The notes below the pieces were generated by a model that saw only the letters and a program-made list of their open reading frames with translations, made no database searches and had not been told where the DNA came from. From Metasolibacillus sp. (GTDB lineage Bacteria; Bacillota; Bacilli; Bacillales_A; Planococcaceae): a stretch of DNA of 64,000 bases. Made by a program: the position numbers and the translations under genes. The DNA lies in NCBI RefSeq assembly GCF_025291715.1, contig NZ_JAMBIZ010000003.1:150724-214723 (forward strand), in the 5' to 3' direction. Positions 21,866-52,413 of this stretch are shown here, piece by piece (the stretch's first letter is position 1; each line of letters opens with the position of its first letter).

Positions 21866-22609
21866 ATGCAACGATATTTTGTAAATGAACAATTCGATGA
21901 ACAACAGCAGCTCGAAATGGTTGGAGAAAACGCAAAACATATAAGTAAAGTGATGCGCATGCAAAGCGGTGATGAAATCGTTGTTGTCACAAATGGACAA
22001 GCCTATATTAGCGAAATTGTAGAAATTGACATAGCCGTCATTGTTCGTAACACAGGTCGCACAGTGCCGTCGCCAGAAATGCCGATTAAGGTTGATATTG
22101 CCTGTGGCTTACCAAAGGGAGATAAGCTAGAGTTAATTGCACAAAAAGCGACAGAATTAGGGATGCACGCATTAATTCCATTTGCAGCAGAGCGCTCCAT
22201 CGTGAAATGGGATGACAAAAAAGGTGAGAAAAAAACGGAGCGTCTGCAAAAAATTGCACAGGAGGCAGCAGAGCAATCACATCGTACATATGTCCCTGAA
22301 ATTCAGCAGCCTATTTCATTTAAGCAATTGTTAGCGCTTGTGCCACAATACGACGCTGTTTTTATTGCCGATGAAGAAGATGCAAAGCAAATCAAACGCA
22401 CAAAGTTTGCGGACAAGCTAAAAAAAGTGTATGATAGTAAATCGGAATCAATCTTATGTATTTTTGGTCCAGAAGGTGGCATCTCTCGTCAAGAAGCAGC
22501 AAGCTTATTACAGGCAGGTGCTGAAACGATGTCGCTTGGTCCTAGAATTTTACGCGCAGAAACCGCACCATTATATGCGCTTTCTGCCATTTCATATGAA
22601 TTTGAATGA
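21866..22609 (+). CDS. rsmE: 16S rRNA m3U1498 methyltransferase (RsmE)
   Basis: The N-terminal PUA-like part has QRYFVN and HISKVMRMQSGDEI. The SPOUT fold carries KGDKLELIAQKATELG, ERSIVKWD, the knot motif FGPEGGIS and LGPRILRAETAPLYAL. It has 247 residues. Its stop overlaps an ATG at the start of the mtaB frame (ATGA). Confidence 0.95.
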   Translation: MQRYFVNEQFDEQQQLEMVGENAKHISKVMRMQSGDEIVVVTNGQAYISEIVEIDIAVIVRNTGRTVPSPEMPIKVDIACGLPKGDKLELIAQKATELGMHALIPFAAERSIVKWDDKKGEKKTERLQKIAQEAAEQSHRTYVPEIQQPISFKQLLALVPQYDAVFIADEEDAKQIKRTKFADKLKKVYDSKSESILCIFGPEGGISRQEAASLLQAGAETMSLGPRILRAETAPLYALSAISYEFE

Positions 22610-22629
22610 AAGAAAGAGGTGTCGAAGTC

Positions 22630-23964
22630 TTGGGAACAGTAGCATTCCAAACGCTGGGCTGCAAAGTAAATCACTACGAAACTGAGGCAATTTGGCAATT
22701 ATTTAAAGAGCAGCAATACGACCGTATCGACTTTGAACAGCAGGCAGATGTCTATGTCATTAATACATGTACGGTAACGAATACGGGAGACAAAAAATCG
22801 CGTCAAGTGATTCGTCGTGCAGTGCGTCGCAATCCAGATGCCGTTATTTGTGTAACAGGCTGCTATGCGCAAACATCACCAGCAGAAATTATGGCAATTC
22901 CAGGGGTCGATATTGTAGTTGGTACACAAGATCGCCATAAGCTGCTTGGCTTAATCGAGCAATACCGTGAGGAGCGTGAGCCAATTAATGCAGTGCGCAA
23001 TATTATGAAAAATCGAGTTTATGAGGAATTGGATGTCCCTGCATTTACAGACCGTACGCGCGCATCTTTAAAAATTCAAGAAGGCTGTAATAACTTCTGT
23101 ACATTTTGTATTATTCCTTGGGCACGTGGCTTAATGCGCTCACGCGATCCACAGGAAGTGATTCGTCAAGCACAGCAATTAGTCGATGCAGGCTATTTAG
23201 AAATCGTTTTGACTGGTATTCATACAGGTGGTTATGGGCAAGATTTTAAAGATTACAATTTAGCACAATTATTGCGTGATTTAGAGGCGCAAGTAAAAGG
23301 CTTAAAGCGCCTGCGTATTTCGTCAATTGAAGCATCGCAATTAACCGATGAAGTGATCGATGTATTACGCAAGTCAAATATTGTTGTAAATCATTTGCAT
23401 ATTCCGATTCAATCAGGCTCAGATACGGTATTAAAACGTATGCGTCGTAAATATACGATGGCATTTTTCTCTGAGCGCATTACGAAATTGGCAGAAGCGT
23501 TGCCAAATTTAGCGGTAACATCTGATGTGATCGTTGGTTTCCCAGGTGAAACAGAGGAGGAGTTTATGGAAACATATAACTTCATCCGCGACCATAAGTT
23601 TTCTGAGTTACATGTCTTCCCATATTCGAAGCGTACAGGCACACCAGCTGCACGTATGGAAGACCAAGTGGATGAGGAAATTAAAAATGAGCGCGTGCAT
23701 CGCTTAATTGCCTTAAACGACCAGTTAGCGAAGGAATACGCAGCTCGCTTTGAAAATGAAGTGATGGAAGTGATTCCAGAGGAGCGCTTCAAAGAAGGCG
23801 AAAACGCAAATCTATATGTTGGCTACACAGACAACTATTTAAAAGTAGTCTTTGAAGGCACGGAAGACATGATTGGCAAATTAGTCAAAGTAAAAATCAC
23901 AAAAGCAGGCTACCCATACAATGAAGGGCAATTCGTTCGTGTATTAGAGGAGCAAATGAGTTAA
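22630..23964 (+). CDS. mtaB: MtaB, tRNA t6A37 C2-methylthiotransferase
   Basis: The N-terminal UPF0004 domain has FQTLGCKVNHYETEA, TCTVTN and VTGCYAQTSP, contributing three cysteines. The radical SAM motif is CNNFCTFCIIP, followed by a TRAM domain near the C-terminus. It converts t6A37 to ms2t6A in ANN-decoding tRNAs. The TTG behind AGAGGTG gives the conserved start GTVAFQTLGCK. An ATG at 22606 overlapping rsmE would add eight residues. Confidence 0.94.
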   Translation: MGTVAFQTLGCKVNHYETEAIWQLFKEQQYDRIDFEQQADVYVINTCTVTNTGDKKSRQVIRRAVRRNPDAVICVTGCYAQTSPAEIMAIPGVDIVVGTQDRHKLLGLIEQYREEREPINAVRNIMKNRVYEELDVPAFTDRTRASLKIQEGCNNFCTFCIIPWARGLMRSRDPQEVIRQAQQLVDAGYLEIVLTGIHTGGYGQDFKDYNLAQLLRDLEAQVKGLKRLRISSIEASQLTDEVIDVLRKSNIVVNHLHIPIQSGSDTVLKRMRRKYTMAFFSERITKLAEALPNLAVTSDVIVGFPGETEEEFMETYNFIRDHKFSELHVFPYSKRTGTPAARMEDQVDEEIKNERVHRLIALNDQLAKEYAARFENEVMEVIPEERFKEGENANLYVGYTDNYLKVVFEGTEDMIGKLVKVKITKAGYPYNEGQFVRVLEEQMS

Positions 23965-23971
23965 GAGAAAG

Positions 23972-24003
23972 CACAGTCTACATTGCGTAGGCTGTGTTTT
24001 TTT
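23972..24003 (+). terminator. Intrinsic terminator after mtaB
   Basis: CACAGTCTAC pairs with GTAGGCTGTG and is followed by seven T. It closes the heat-shock/RNA-modification run and directly precedes a repeat array. Confidence 0.88.
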
Positions 24004-24009
24004 GCAAGG

Positions 24010-24182
24010 TGCTGATATATTATGGATTTCGCTGATATATTTCTAAAAAGCGCCGATGTATCGCAGCAAGCCCTTGATATTTTGTGAAACGCAGATAAGT
24101 GCTAGAAATTCGCAGATAACCTAGCAAATTTCGCAGATAACTCTACGTAAAACGCAGATATATTTTTAAAAATCGCAGATAA
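24010..24182 (+). repeat. Intergenic array of a short word at 21-nt spacing (CGCAGATA type)
   Basis: The word CGCAGATAA recurs at 24090, 24111, 24132, 24153 and 24174, exactly 21 bases apart. Degenerate copies are at 24030 and 24051 (also 21 apart), with looser ones at 24010 and 24072. Between the words the sequence varies but tends to end in AAA. The words carry stop codons in one frame and the stretch is not a gene. It fills most of the 322-base gap between mtaB and the UvrA-like gene. Confidence 0.85.
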
Positions 24183-24286: not shown

Positions 24287-26539
24287 ATGGCGCAAACGTA
24301 TATTGAAATTGTCAATGCGAGAGAAAACAATTTGGAAAATGTCAGCCTGCAAATTCCGAAAGGGAAACTCACTGTTTTCACAGGGGTATCAGGTTCAGGG
24401 AAATCATCTATCGTTTTTGATACAGTGGCGCAAGAAGCAGGGCGTCAATTGAATGAAACGTATAGTAGCTTTGTCCGCACATTTTTGCCAAAATACCGCA
24501 GACCTGAGGCGGATGCAATTCATAATTTATCGACAGCGATTGTCGTTGACCAAAAGCGCTTCGGTGGTAATGCACGTTCAACATTAGGCACTGCAACAGA
24601 TATCAATTCACTGTTAAGACTATTATTTTCACGCTTTGCTACGCCGAGCATCGGCTATGGAAATGCTTATTCCTTTAATGATCCGAGCGGCATGTGTTTG
24701 CAATGTGAAGGCATTGGTAAAATTATCACATTGAATATCGACACAACATTAAATAAAGAAAAATCATTAAATGACGGAGCTATTTTGCTTCCAGGCTTTG
24801 GTGTAGGCACATGGCAATGGAAGGCGTATGCAGAATCAGGCTTCTTCGATAATGACAAAAAAATACAAGATTACACCGAGCAAGAGCTGCATCAATTAAT
24901 GTATGCAGAGCCGCAAAAAGTAACAGTAACGTATCAAAACAGCGAAATAAATGCCACTTATGAAGGTATTGCAGTAAAGTTTATGCGACAAAATGTCAAA
25001 ACGGATAAAGATACAACAAAGGCAGCCGCAAGTAAATTAGAGCAATTTACAACGATGTGTAGCTGTCCAACATGCGATGGTAAACGCTATAATGAGCAAG
25101 TGCTTTCTTCAAAAATATTAGGTCATTCGATTTATGATATGACGGCGATGCAGCTAGATGAATTGATGGCAGTTTTGCAAAAAATTGAAGAGCCTTTAGC
25201 AAAGGAGCTAGTTGTAGGAATTACAGAAAGGCTGCAAAGTTTATGCGATATCGGGCTTGGCTATATGACGTTAACGCGCGAAATGCCAACATTATCAGGC
25301 GGGGAATCGCAGCGTGTAAAAATGGTCAAATATTTATCTAGCAATTTAACAGGCTTAATCTATATTTTTGATGAGCCGAGTACAGGCTTGCATCCACACG
25401 ATGTCTATCGCTTAAATGATTTGCTTATTAAGCTACGCGATAAAGGTAATACGGTTTTAGTTGTAGAGCATGACCCAGATGTCATTCAAATTGCAGATCA
25501 TGTGATTGATGTTGGTCCAGCTGCTGGTTCACATGGTGGGCAAATTATGTTTAGTGGTAACTACGAGGAGCTGTTAAAAGCAGATACGCTAACGGCACAA
25601 TATTTAAAATCGGAAGCAACAATCAAAGCGAATCCACGTCCTGCTACAGAATTTTTAGAGAGTGACAAAAGCACATTGCACAATTTGAAAAATGTTAGCT
25701 TGCGAGTGCCAACAGGTGTATTGACGGCGGTTACTGGTGTAGCTGGCTCAGGAAAAAGCACGCTTGTACATGAAGTGTTTGCAAAAAAATATCCTGAGGC
25801 CATTCGCATCGATCAAAGTGCTGTCCATGCAAATAGTCGCTCAAACCCATTGACCTATACAGGCGTGATGAATTCCATTCGCAAAGCCTTTTCTGATGCC
25901 AATGGGGTGGATGCAGGGCTGTTTAGTTATAATTCAACGGGTGGCTGCGAGAGCTGTGGTGGTACAGGGACGGTAGAATTAAATTTATCATTTATGGATA
26001 AAGCAGAGGTTGTATGTACACAATGTAATGGAACACGCTATAAACAAGAAGTGCTGCAATATACGTATAAAGATAAAAATATTGTCGATGTAATGGATAT
26101 GACAGTGGCAGAGGCGGTAGAATTTTTCGAGGCAAAGGATATTAAGCGCAAATTAACAAGCTTAAATACGGTAGGTTTATCCTATTTAACGCTAGGACAA
26201 CCACTCAACACATTGTCAGGCGGGGAATGCCAGCGTTTAAAGCTCGCGAAGGAAATGTCAACGAAGGGCAATTTATATATTTTAGATGAGCCAACAACAG
26301 GCTTACATATGTCAGATGTAGCGACAATTTTAAATATTATGAATACGCTTGTTGACAAAGGCAACACGGTTATCGTTATTGAGCATAATTTAGATGTAAT
26401 TCGCCATAGCGACTGGATTATTGATATTGGTCCAGAAGGTGGAATTGGTGGCGGTGAAATTTTATTTGAAGGACCACCAGTAAATATTGTCAATTGTGAG
26501 CGTTCAATTACAGCGAAGCACTTAACGGCAATAAGCTAG
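24287..26539 (+). CDS. Short UvrA-like ABC ATPase (excinuclease UvrA family)
   Basis: It has two ABC ATPase halves. Half 1 has GVSGSGKSS, LSGGESQRVK and IFDEPSTGLHP; half 2 has GVAGSGKST, LSGGECQRLK and ILDEPTTGLH. A zinc-finger pair typical of UvrA lies in half 2 (CESCGGTG ... CTQCNGTR). At 750 residues it is about 200 shorter than true UvrA, which runs to about 950. It is not beside uvrB. Short UvrA paralogues of this type have been linked to drug resistance in some bacteria; the role here is unknown. The ATG follows AAAGGAGGAAC. Confidence 0.88.
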   Translation: MAQTYIEIVNARENNLENVSLQIPKGKLTVFTGVSGSGKSSIVFDTVAQEAGRQLNETYSSFVRTFLPKYRRPEADAIHNLSTAIVVDQKRFGGNARSTLGTATDINSLLRLLFSRFATPSIGYGNAYSFNDPSGMCLQCEGIGKIITLNIDTTLNKEKSLNDGAILLPGFGVGTWQWKAYAESGFFDNDKKIQDYTEQELHQLMYAEPQKVTVTYQNSEINATYEGIAVKFMRQNVKTDKDTTKAAASKLEQFTTMCSCPTCDGKRYNEQVLSSKILGHSIYDMTAMQLDELMAVLQKIEEPLAKELVVGITERLQSLCDIGLGYMTLTREMPTLSGGESQRVKMVKYLSSNLTGLIYIFDEPSTGLHPHDVYRLNDLLIKLRDKGNTVLVVEHDPDVIQIADHVIDVGPAAGSHGGQIMFSGNYEELLKADTLTAQYLKSEATIKANPRPATEFLESDKSTLHNLKNVSLRVPTGVLTAVTGVAGSGKSTLVHEVFAKKYPEAIRIDQSAVHANSRSNPLTYTGVMNSIRKAFSDANGVDAGLFSYNSTGGCESCGGTGTVELNLSFMDKAEVVCTQCNGTRYKQEVLQYTYKDKNIVDVMDMTVAEAVEFFEAKDIKRKLTSLNTVGLSYLTLGQPLNTLSGGECQRLKLAKEMSTKGNLYILDEPTTGLHMSDVATILNIMNTLVDKGNTVIVIEHNLDVIRHSDWIIDIGPEGGIGGGEILFEGPPVNIVNCERSITAKHLTAIS

Positions 26540-38157: not shown

Positions 38158-38445
38158 ATGAACAGAGAAGGTACAGCTTTAGGAATGGTAGAAACAAAAG
38201 GTCTTGTAGGAGCAATTGAAGCAGCTGATGCAATGGTAAAGGCAGCTAGCGTAAACTTAGTAGGTAAAGTACATGTTGGTGGCGGTATTGTAACAGTATT
38301 AGTACGTGGTGATGTAGGTGCAGTAAAGGCAGCAACAGATGCAGGTGCAGCAGCAGCAGAGCGCGTAGGCGAATTATTATCTGTACACGTAATCCCACGC
38401 CCACATAACGAGTTAGAATTAATTTTACCAAAGTATGAAGGATAA
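38158..38445 (+). CDS. eutM: EutM, hexameric microcompartment shell protein
   Basis: 95 residues, one BMC domain: [39 protein letters not shown] and [15 protein letters not shown]. It is the likely main facet-forming hexamer. The SD is GGAGG. A terminator-like stem follows, so shell protein may be made in excess of downstream products. Confidence 0.97.
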
Positions 38446-38460
38446 TTAAGTAGCTAAAAC

Positions 38461-38503
38461 GGGGCTTGTCTAAAATTTATCAACAAGCCCCATGCTTTAT
38501 TTT
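38461..38503 (+). terminator. Internal terminator between eutM and pduL
   Basis: GGGGCTTGT and ACAAGCCCC form a perfect 9-bp stem followed by the weak tract ATGCTTTATTTT. It lacks an ANTAR hexaloop, so it probably attenuates rather than being under EutV control. Confidence 0.75.
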
Positions 38504-38504
38504 C

Positions 38505-38588
38505 GTTGAGCGAATTTAGTTGGTGGTTGAGCGATTTTCCACGTTCGTTGAGCGAATTTTGGCTTTGGTTGAGCGAATTATTACTTTG
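38505..38588 (+). repeat. Intergenic array of a short word at 21-nt spacing (GTTGAGCGAATTT type)
   Basis: GTTGAGCGAATTT or a close variant starts at 38505, 38526, 38547 and 38568, each exactly 21 bases apart, with variable sequence between. It starts one base after the terminator tract. It is in frame with pduL and open from 38520 but has no SD, so I do not treat it as coding. Confidence 0.87.
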
Positions 38589-43227: not shown

Positions 43228-44223
43228 ATGTTTGAAACAGCAGGAGTAGTTGGTTTAACAATTATTATCATTGCTATTTTTATCGTTTTAGCAATCTTCT
43301 TCACATTCGTTCCAGTAACGTTGTGGATTAGTGCATTAGCAGCAGGTGTTCGTGTAAGTATTTTCACATTAATCGGGATGCGTTTACGTCGCGTAATTCC
43401 ATCGCGCATTGTTAACCCTTTAATTAAGGCGCATAAGGCGGGAATTGAAGTAACGATTAATCAATTAGAGTCACATTATTTAGCAGGTGGTAACGTAGAC
43501 CGCGTAGTCAACGCATTAATCGCTGCACACCGCGCTAATATTGAATTATCATTTGAGCGTGCGGCTGCAATCGATTTAGCAGGTCGTGACGTATTAGAGG
43601 CAGTACAAATGTCGGTTAACCCAAAAGTAATTGAAACGCCGTTTATTGCAGGTGTAGCAATTAACGGGATTGAAGTAAAAGCGAAAGCACGTATTACAGT
43701 GCGTACAAACTTAGATCGTTTAGTCGGTGGTGCAGGTGAGGATACAATTATTGCGCGTGTTGGTGAGGGGATTGTCTCAACAATTGGTTCCTCTAAATCA
43801 CACTCAGTTGTATTAGAAAACCCAGATTTAATTTCACAAACAGTGTTATCAAAAGGCTTAGACTCAGGTACAGCGTTCGAAATTTTATCCATTGATATTG
43901 CAGATGTAGATGTTGGTAAAAATATTGGTGCAGAGCTACAAATTGAGCAGGCACAGGCAGATAAAAACATTGCACAGGCAAAAGCTGAGGAGCGTCGTGC
44001 GATGGCAGTAGCAACAGAGCAGGAAATGGTTGCGAAAGTTCAAGAGATGAAGGCGAAAGTTGTTGAAGCAGAGGCGGAAGTACCAATGGCAATGGCGGAA
44101 GCTTTACGCTCAGGCAACCTTGGTATTATGGACTATATGAACTATAAAAACATTCAAGCGGATACGATGATGCGTGATTCTATTGCGAAATCAACAAATG
44201 ATGACAATACGCAAAATAAATAA
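43228..44223 (+). CDS. floA: Flotillin-like protein FloA
   Basis: The N-terminal membrane hairpin ([19 protein letters not shown]) is followed by an SPFH-like domain ([32 protein letters not shown]) and an Ala/Glu-rich coiled-coil ([34 protein letters not shown]). It has 331 residues, the YqfA/FloA family, and organises membrane microdomains. Translation is coupled to nfeD. Confidence 0.97.
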
Positions 44224-50161: not shown

Positions 50162-51491
<1,330 letters not shown>

Positions 51492-51500
51492 GGAAAATGA

Positions 51501-51530
51501 AAACTCCCGCTGCAATGTGGGAGTTTCTTT
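51501..51530 (+). terminator. Intrinsic terminator after era
   Basis: AAACTCCC and GGGAGTTT form a perfect stem, followed by CTTTTG. Confidence 0.8.
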
Positions 51531-51547
51531 TGCTTACATTGGGGGAA

Positions 51548-51631
51548 ACGTGGAATAAAACTGAAAAAACGTAGAATAAACTTTCGAAAACGTGGAATAA
51601 ATCTCGAAAAATGTGGAATAAAAGGGAGGTG
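51548..51631 (+). repeat. Intergenic array of a short word at 21-nt spacing (ACGTGGAATAAA type)
   Basis: ACGTGGAATAAA or a one-base variant starts at 51548, 51569, 51590 and 51611, each exactly 21 bases apart. The variable part ends A-rich. The last unit runs straight into the recO SD (AGGGAGGTG). It begins 17 bases after the era terminator. Confidence 0.87.
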
Positions 51632-51639
51632 CAATCAAA

Positions 51640-52413
51640 ATGCTACACAAATGGGAGGGAATCGTCCTCAAGGCAAGAGCCTATGGTGAGTCCAACAAAA
51701 TCGTCACATTGCTAACGCGTGAGGCAGGGAAAATCGCTGTGATGGCACGTGGGGCCAAAAAGCCAACAAGTCGCTTAGCAGGTATTACACAGCCCTTCAT
51801 GTATGGCTTGTATTTAGTGCAACGTACAACAGGAATGGGCACATTGCAGCAAGGAGAGCATTTAAATGCAATGCGTACGCTGCAAACGGATATCCGTGCA
51901 ACAGCTTATGCAAGCTATATCGGAGAGCTTGTCGACCGCTTAGTAGAAGAAGGTGAACCACAGCCCTTCGCCTTTGAAGTAGTTAGACAAGCACTACTGG
52001 CTATCGATGAAGGCTATGACCCAGAAGCGATTGCCTTATTTGTAGATTGGAAAATGCTGCCGTTCGCAGGAGTACAACCAATTTTACATGCGTGTGCAAG
52101 CTGCGGCTCCTCAGATGGAGAATTCGCCTTCTCCTTTGCACAGGGAGGCTTTTTATGCCATCGCTGCTTCCACCATGATCCATATATCATTCGCTTATCA
52201 CCAACCCAGCTTAAGCTGATTCGGATGTTTTATATGATGCCAATTGAGCAAGTAGGGAAGCTTGATTTAAAGCCGCAAACGAAGATGTTTATTAAAAAAA
52301 TTGTGACAACAATTTATGAGGAGCAAACGGGCATTCGTTTGAAGTCCAGAAGCTTTATCGAGCAGCTAGACAAAATGGGAGGTGCCTGGCACACAAACAA
52401 TTCTGAAAATTAA
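51640..52413 (+). CDS. recO: RecO, recombination mediator
   Basis: N-terminal OB fold (GIVLKARAYGESNKIVTLLT) and a helical domain with a zinc cluster (CASCGSSDG ... CHRCFHH). 257 residues. The natural-looking end is SRSFIEQLDKMG; the last nine residues (AWHTNNSEN) are encoded by a palindromic repeat that also supplies the stop codon. Confidence 0.95.
   Translation: MLHKWEGIVLKARAYGESNKIVTLLTREAGKIAVMARGAKKPTSRLAGITQPFMYGLYLVQRTTGMGTLQQGEHLNAMRTLQTDIRATAYASYIGELVDRLVEEGEPQPFAFEVVRQALLAIDEGYDPEAIALFVDWKMLPFAGVQPILHACASCGSSDGEFAFSFAQGGFLCHRCFHHDPYIIRLSPTQLKLIRMFYMMPIEQVGKLDLKPQTKMFIKKIVTTIYEEQTGIRLKSRSFIEQLDKMGGAWHTNNSEN

Follow-up and report, generated by a model that had tools for sequence, protein, structure and literature searches.

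The window (the whole 64,000-nt stretch of Metasolibacillus DNA that was analysed) contains three intergenic arrays of short, directly repeated words, and the features surrounding them are collected in Table 1. The words of array 1 follow one another, from first to last, at steps of 20, 21, 21, 18, 21, 21, 21 and 21 nt. A preliminary description had reported five copies of a single word in the later part of this array; their positions and the 21-nt step are correct, but the copy at 24153 reads CGCAGATAT and not CGCAGATAA, differing in the last base. Array 2 follows a hairpin that was missed by the forward terminator scan, its stem being recovered in the reverse scan. In array 3 the core GTRGAATAAA is found at 51550, 51571, 51592 and 51613, and the array ends immediately 5' of the ribosome-binding region of recO. 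Between mtaB and era, at 28-44 kb of the window, lies a cluster with an EutM-like microcompartment shell gene.

Table 1. Arrays 1-3 and their neighbours, in coordinates of the window.
Feature	Position	Strand	Basis or remark
mtaB, tRNA methylthiotransferase, upstream neighbour of array 1	22606..23964	+	TIGR01579 above cut-off
mtaB intrinsic terminator, 5' of array 1	23970..24003	+	Terminator scan and sequence
Array 1, nine words	24010..24182	+	Read from sequence; last five are CGCAGATAW at an exact 21-nt step
Array 1, degenerate words	24010 TGCTGATAT, 24030 CGCTGATAT, 24051 CGCCGATGT, 24072 CCTTGATAT	+	
Array 1, later words	24090, 24111, 24132, 24174 CGCAGATAA; 24153 CGCAGATAT	+	
UvrA-like protein gene (750 aa), downstream neighbour of array 1	24287..26539	+	TIGR00630 barely above cut-off
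Microcompartment shell gene, upstream of array 2	38158-38445		
Hairpin and T-rich tail, between shell gene and array 2	38460..38503	+	By eye
Array 2, four TTGAGCGAATTT-type words, step 21	38506..38581	+	Starts 38506, 38527, 38548, 38569
era, upstream neighbour of array 3	50574..51491	+	NF000908 above cut-off
era intrinsic terminator, 5' of array 3	51500..51532	+	Terminator scan and sequence
Array 3, four CGTRGAATAAA-type words, step 21	51546..51622	+	Last word starts TGT
recO, downstream neighbour of array 3	51640..52413	+	TIGR00613 above cut-off

The longest chains of words at one step contain 5, 4 and 4 copies in arrays 1, 2 and 3, compared with 3, 2 and 3 when each of the three intergenic stretches was subjected to 500 dinucleotide shuffles with steps of 10 to 60 nt allowed. 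With any step in that range permitted, the best chain falls at step 21 in all three arrays. A coding repeat with the same 21-nt step, four copies of TGCGAAAGT at 44031-44114 of the window, lies within an open reading frame (43228-44223) and is present in relatives too. This is a heptad-like protein repeat and was kept out of the array counts.

The ruler is not confined to the window. In 22% of the same genome (94,385 intergenic bases within 851,526 bases) we find 27 intergenic arrays with a step of 20-22 nt, a density that is biased upward because some stretches were picked for containing CGCAGATAA. The period detector is blind to word sequence, and the table of 27 arrays omits the coding repeat described above. 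Its runs, sorted by centre period, number 30 at 20, 30 at 21, 18 at 41 and 15 at 42; the double-step region of 39-43 holds 7-18 runs at each period, and periods of 13-18, 23-38, 44 and 45 hold 0-1 each. Five shuffled intergenic sets gave no runs at periods 20-22, so the excess of periodicity over shuffled intergenic DNA, which had been proposed as a check, is found. Pairs of the form CGCNRATAW-N10-12-CGCNRATAW (class A, the most frequent family of words) have 338 matches in this genome and 333 in strain G002 of the same species, and the reversed pattern has none in either. The 20-21-nt peak recurs in four further sets of stretches and in named era loci. The central claim of the preliminary description, that different words share one ruler, thus holds at 20-21 nt across the genome and in several genera.

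The steps are mostly 20 or 21 nt, with 22 or 18 rare. There are arrays of 15-53 units that hold a 20-nt step almost all the way, and a helix of 10.5 bp per turn therefore cannot present all their units on the same side. This makes rigid two-helical-turn phasing along the whole array, which had been suggested, unlikely; we infer that the constraint must act between neighbouring units. Predicted curvature, from a dinucleotide wedge model, averages z = -1.76 over the 27 arrays, and 0.01 over 60 background stretches. The arrays nevertheless do not have curvature in common: those on a 20-nt step are straight, and any repeat of 21 nt comes into phase. Protein coding by the arrays was also rejected: a 20-nt step is common and alternating arrays have one of 41 nt, so the reading frame rotates along the array.

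Several words are set on this ruler. Those of Metasolibacillus include CGCAGATAW, CGCAAATAW, CGCTGATAT or CGCCGATAT, TTGAGCGAATTT and its reverse, CGTRGAATAAA, GTGATCAAATAA and ATTCGCCCRC. Elsewhere the word is CGCTGATAA in the Lysinibacillus-like genome G092 and in L. odysseyi (G039), CGCGGATAA in G016, CGCCAATAA in G236 and TTACGTGCG in L. antri, and AATACTGTCCG occurs at four Planococcus/Planomicrobium loci 3' of the gene immediately downstream of era, which synteny identifies as recO. In G092 some 675 bp (L250:14874-15549) carry the adjacent word families CTATCCACGA and TTTCCGTCGC, both on a 21-nt step. One word is used at many unlinked sites. CGCAGATAA has 39 copies in arrays in the stretches of our own genome, with 2 more in intergenic DNA (a two-word array) and 8 in coding sequence.

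The unit is more than its word. It had been thought that only about the first 9 bases are conserved, a view that the T at position 11 and the RAAA at positions 16-19 correct. Among class A units at step 21 (n = 44) positions 4, 9 and 11 carry 1.49, 1.04 and 1.06 bits of information, and a second, A-rich block at positions 16-19 reaches 0.81-1.73 bits; positions 10, 12, 14 and 15 have only 0.03-0.18 bits. Positions 1-3 and 5-8 are largely set by the search pattern and do not count as independent evidence. An A-rich block 5' of the word and a terminal ATAA can also be seen by eye with the CGTRGAATAAA and GTGATCAAATAA words. The trinucleotide GGG precedes the first word in 17 of 77 arrays, against 73 of 1,197 background 14-mers, many of the 17 coming from one genome, G113.

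The spacers alternate with a period of 41-42 nt. In 49 of 63 arrays the variable columns of alternate units (lag 2) resemble each other more closely than those of adjacent units (lag 1); among short arrays this holds for 32 of 43 (binomial p = 0.002). Six G002 loci orthologous to our own and arrays flagged as coding were removed from this set; the cases are not all independent, because some further orthologous pairs (L209 and L217, for example) were retained. Such alternation would arise if arrays grow by blocks of two units, and equally if the bound unit is a dimer.

Close relatives, to which the preliminary description had looked for a comparison, do carry arrays, with differing words and copy numbers. 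The Era protein encoded here is 98% identical to that of Metasolibacillus meyeri and to that of a record named Bacillus ndiopicus, and two strains of the same genus, G003 and G004, match the M. meyeri and B. ndiopicus records at 100% over 3,915 bases. The array between era and recO has four words in our strain, five in M. meyeri and one in B. ndiopicus. At the mtaB site G002 is missing one of the first array units, G003 carries CGCAGATAA, G004 alternates CGCTGATATA with CGCCGATAAA, and no array was seen in G001. A comparison with G002 was possible for 21 of our 27 arrays; 14 are of equal length and 7 differ, by approximately 1, 1, 3, 3, 9, 13 and 14 units, the second 3-unit case also involving an exchange of word. 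At the C28 site our strain is two units short relative to G002. At C27:9702 there are four copies of CGCAGATAA in our strain and three of CGCCAATAG in G002, on the same 21-nt step, between flanks that are 95-98% identical, all units having changed word together; the terminator differs, and in G002 its 5' arm is formed by the last word. Substitutions between the two strains fall at 4 of 560 core sites and 2 of 245 other positions (6 changes in 8 arrays). Core and remainder thus change at similar frequency, but so few substitutions give the comparison no power to show selection on the word.

These differences bear on the simplest alternative, that the arrays are functionless minisatellites produced by slippage in tolerant DNA, with a preferred slippage length of 20-21 nt and conversion within each array keeping its words alike. 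The variation in length at 7 of the 21 sites, the block structure of long arrays and the lack of any excess of substitutions outside the core are all as such a process would leave them. Yet it does not account for unrelated words sharing one step when other periods are absent, for a single word at many unlinked sites, or for neighbours that are less alike than alternate units in 32 of 43 short arrays, contrary to duplication by one unit. We regard this explanation as rather unlikely. The earlier contention that this is not ordinary tandem duplication is accordingly half right: strains gain and lose whole units as slippage would have it, but slippage alone leaves unexplained that the word persists where other columns vary, that unrelated words have a 20-21-nt step in common and that one word serves many unlinked sites.

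Beyond the species, a scan of 261 genomes from 19 genera of one family, covering the class A word only, found a pattern of three such words in 43 genomes and 8 genera, scattered within genera, and arrays with the same step and identical or other words are found in Lysinibacillus, Planococcus and further relatives. Near era there are also eight-copy tandem arrays of other unit length, 44 nt at L044:6069 (Lysinibacillus fusiformis) and 52 nt at L113:17399 (Cytobacillus eiseniae). The class A triple pattern gave two matches on viral contigs, both of them ordinary perfect tandem repeats, and viral carriage was rejected.

The scattered distribution could be taken as the mark of a REP-like dispersed element, in which an enzyme that recognises the word copies whole arrays to new sites. 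G113 also speaks for this. Its arrays at unrelated loci have a common order of spacers (counted from either end, none of 300 shuffles reaches the value for 10 arrays), and at unrelated loci (L277-L283, L245) some 20 nt resembling ATGGGGATTTTTGGGGATT form a leader before the first word, as if arrays had been copied whole. Against it, our own genome has no common spacer order (for 13 arrays the value is equalled in 41 and 40 of 300 shuffles), and none of the 21 sites compared with G002 is completely empty. Across 34 genomes chosen by hand and classed as array-rich or array-poor by the class A word only, the Y1 transposase family PF01797, in which RAYTs are pooled with other Y1 proteins, is lacking in 5 of 18 rich genomes but occurs in 12 of 16 poor ones. 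The reverse transcriptase family PF00078 is more frequent in rich genomes (16 of 18) than in poor ones (9 of 16); as 2 of the 18 rich genomes lack it, reverse transcriptase is not required, and copying by such an enzyme was rejected. Co-occurrence thus points to neither family, and a REP-like origin seems to us improbable.

The arrays had been described as lying right after a terminator. This is so for about half of those in our own genome, where a predicted terminator separates the stop codon from the array in 14 of 28 cases by scan, with one more (array 2) by eye; what the arrays there have in common is a place at the 3' end of a gene, before or after its terminator. In 7 of the 28 the array starts no more than 8 nt past the upstream stop codon. 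The flanking genes, taken as open reading frames of at least 80 codons with three assignments corrected by hand, are co-directional on the leading strand for 17 arrays, convergent for 8 and on the lagging strand for 2, with no array between divergent genes. None of about 60 divergent spacers is occupied, against 8 of 38 convergent ones (Fisher p = 0.0003, and 0.004 against all other spacers). Placement at gene 3' ends is not general, because 4 of 10 arrays in G113 sit between divergent reading frames. In G002 the last CGCCAATAG word at one locus (L276, G002:C1:1878001-1890000) is the 5' arm of the next terminator hairpin, so array and terminator have common sequence there. As a general rule the word does not serve as a terminator arm, its reverse complement being near just 3 of 75 arrays.

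Those 7 arrays close behind a stop codon would be transcribed, and this, with the strand opposite the main word appearing pyrimidine-rich by eye, raises an RNA-level alternative in which sense or antisense transcripts are bound or ended at the array, for example by Rho acting on the pyrimidine-rich strand. Rho requires less than a fixed word, which counts against it. Ten foldings gave z values from -1.78 to 1.19, no better than shuffles, and the window has no Rfam match at gathering thresholds; RNA structure and a known structured RNA were both rejected on these grounds. One array, C11:45802, is moreover antisense, between two lagging-strand genes. We consider an RNA-level element very doubtful.

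In Metasolibacillus the main word has a direction along the chromosome. The G002 chromosome is 3.96 Mb long with dnaA at 1.010 Mb, and the 52 CGCAGATAW pairs, which occupy 16 sites, are without exception directed away from dnaA if the terminus lies within 2.71-3.27 Mb. For the wider pattern, every plus-strand match among those listed (70 of 72) lies at 1.32-2.71 Mb; the minus-strand matches listed are 30 of 261. In the stretches of our own genome 155 of 155 class A words within arrays have the same orientation, which GC skew places on the leading strand. The set includes seven convergent spacers and C11:45802, and because these conform, gene direction alone is insufficient to explain the polarity. 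The exceptions, both CGCYGATA variants on the lagging strand, are C11:190628, a remnant of two words, and C33:90215, where one word stands alone; the TTGAGCGAATT word is found in both directions. Strict polarity is seen only in Metasolibacillus. In G113, where strand was inferred from four skew values, 17 of 22 sites are on the leading strand; in G236, with 10 plus and 8 minus sites, 9 of the 10 plus sites lie below 1.3 Mb and 6 of the 8 minus sites above 2.3 Mb. These two trends could be explained by gene strand bias.

Minisatellites and VNTR loci change in length by whole units between strains, and so do the arrays, at the seven sites noted above; here, though, a single step serves unrelated sequences, and the unit is not alike over its full length, since short arrays keep the core while columns 10, 12, 14 and 15 carry 0.03-0.18 bits. 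Plasmid iterons are direct repeats about two helical turns apart to which one protein binds. The fixed step of about that length is found here as well, in arrays that differ in being chromosomal, dispersed over many sites and written in several words. CRISPR repeats are some 23-50 nt long, with unique spacers; the unit is 20-21 nt in all of our arrays.

No description of such arrays was found among the papers listed by searches of the open-licence literature of PubMed Central. They belong with the dispersed intergenic repeats, where the nearest are REP/BIME elements and the TAACTGA repeats, both of which fail on defining features. According to PMC2817692, REPs are short, extragenic and species-specific, with more than 100 copies per genome and regular spacing in composites, and have been proposed to help organise the chromosome and terminate transcription. 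The arrays resemble them in being short extragenic repeats of many copies and regular spacing. They differ in that REP/BIME elements, as presented there, are palindromes of alternating orientation, whereas our words are non-palindromic and run in one direction at a 20-21-nt step. Consistent with this, the arrays fold no better than shuffles, all 155 class A words point the same way, and the Y1-type transposases associated with REP/BIME elements are those missing from 5 of the 18 array-rich genomes. The TAACTGA repeats of Beggiatoaceae (PMC4679880) are direct repeats of one heptamer lying mostly just 5' of start codons. Those heptamers are adjacent and of one sequence; here the words are 9-13 nt, spaced, variable between arrays with several per genome, and mostly at gene ends.

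The reading we prefer, tentatively, is that the array words may well be recognition sites for a putative sequence-specific DNA-binding protein seated head to tail. Slippage does not account for a step common to all words, for the recurrence of a word at many unlinked sites or for unlike neighbours, and the simplest addition would be a reader that requires both word and step. A trans-acting reader would hold word and step constant, while slippage would alter copy number. The tolerance of 20 or 21 nt suggests that adjacent protomers touch and do not all share a single rigid face of the helix, and the 41-42-nt alternation of the spacers would reflect either a dimer as the bound unit or growth two units at a time. 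An occupied array at the end of a gene might then act as a boundary or polar block against stray transcription, which is the weakest part of the scheme. Several observations count against this reading: long arrays on a 20-nt step would not keep to one helical face, strict polarity fails in other genera and has two lagging-strand exceptions even in our own genome, some G113 arrays lie between divergent reading frames, and in the two-strain comparison the core is no more constant than the other positions.

A bolder and distinctly less likely extension is that these are address arrays, in which a 20-21-bp ruler grown in two-unit blocks carries interchangeable words for fast-evolving protein readers, so that each array at a gene end could be re-addressed in one piece, as in the exchange of word between the two strains, and the main word is laid out from origin to terminus.

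On the reading we prefer, 27 arrays of many words at a fixed step in a fifth of one genome would point to a previously unrecognised DNA-reading system in the family. The arrays of four or five words, the natural exchanges of word, the length variants and the oriented set together provide material for finding how the ruler arises, and the polarity in Metasolibacillus makes a link to the movement of the replication fork testable.
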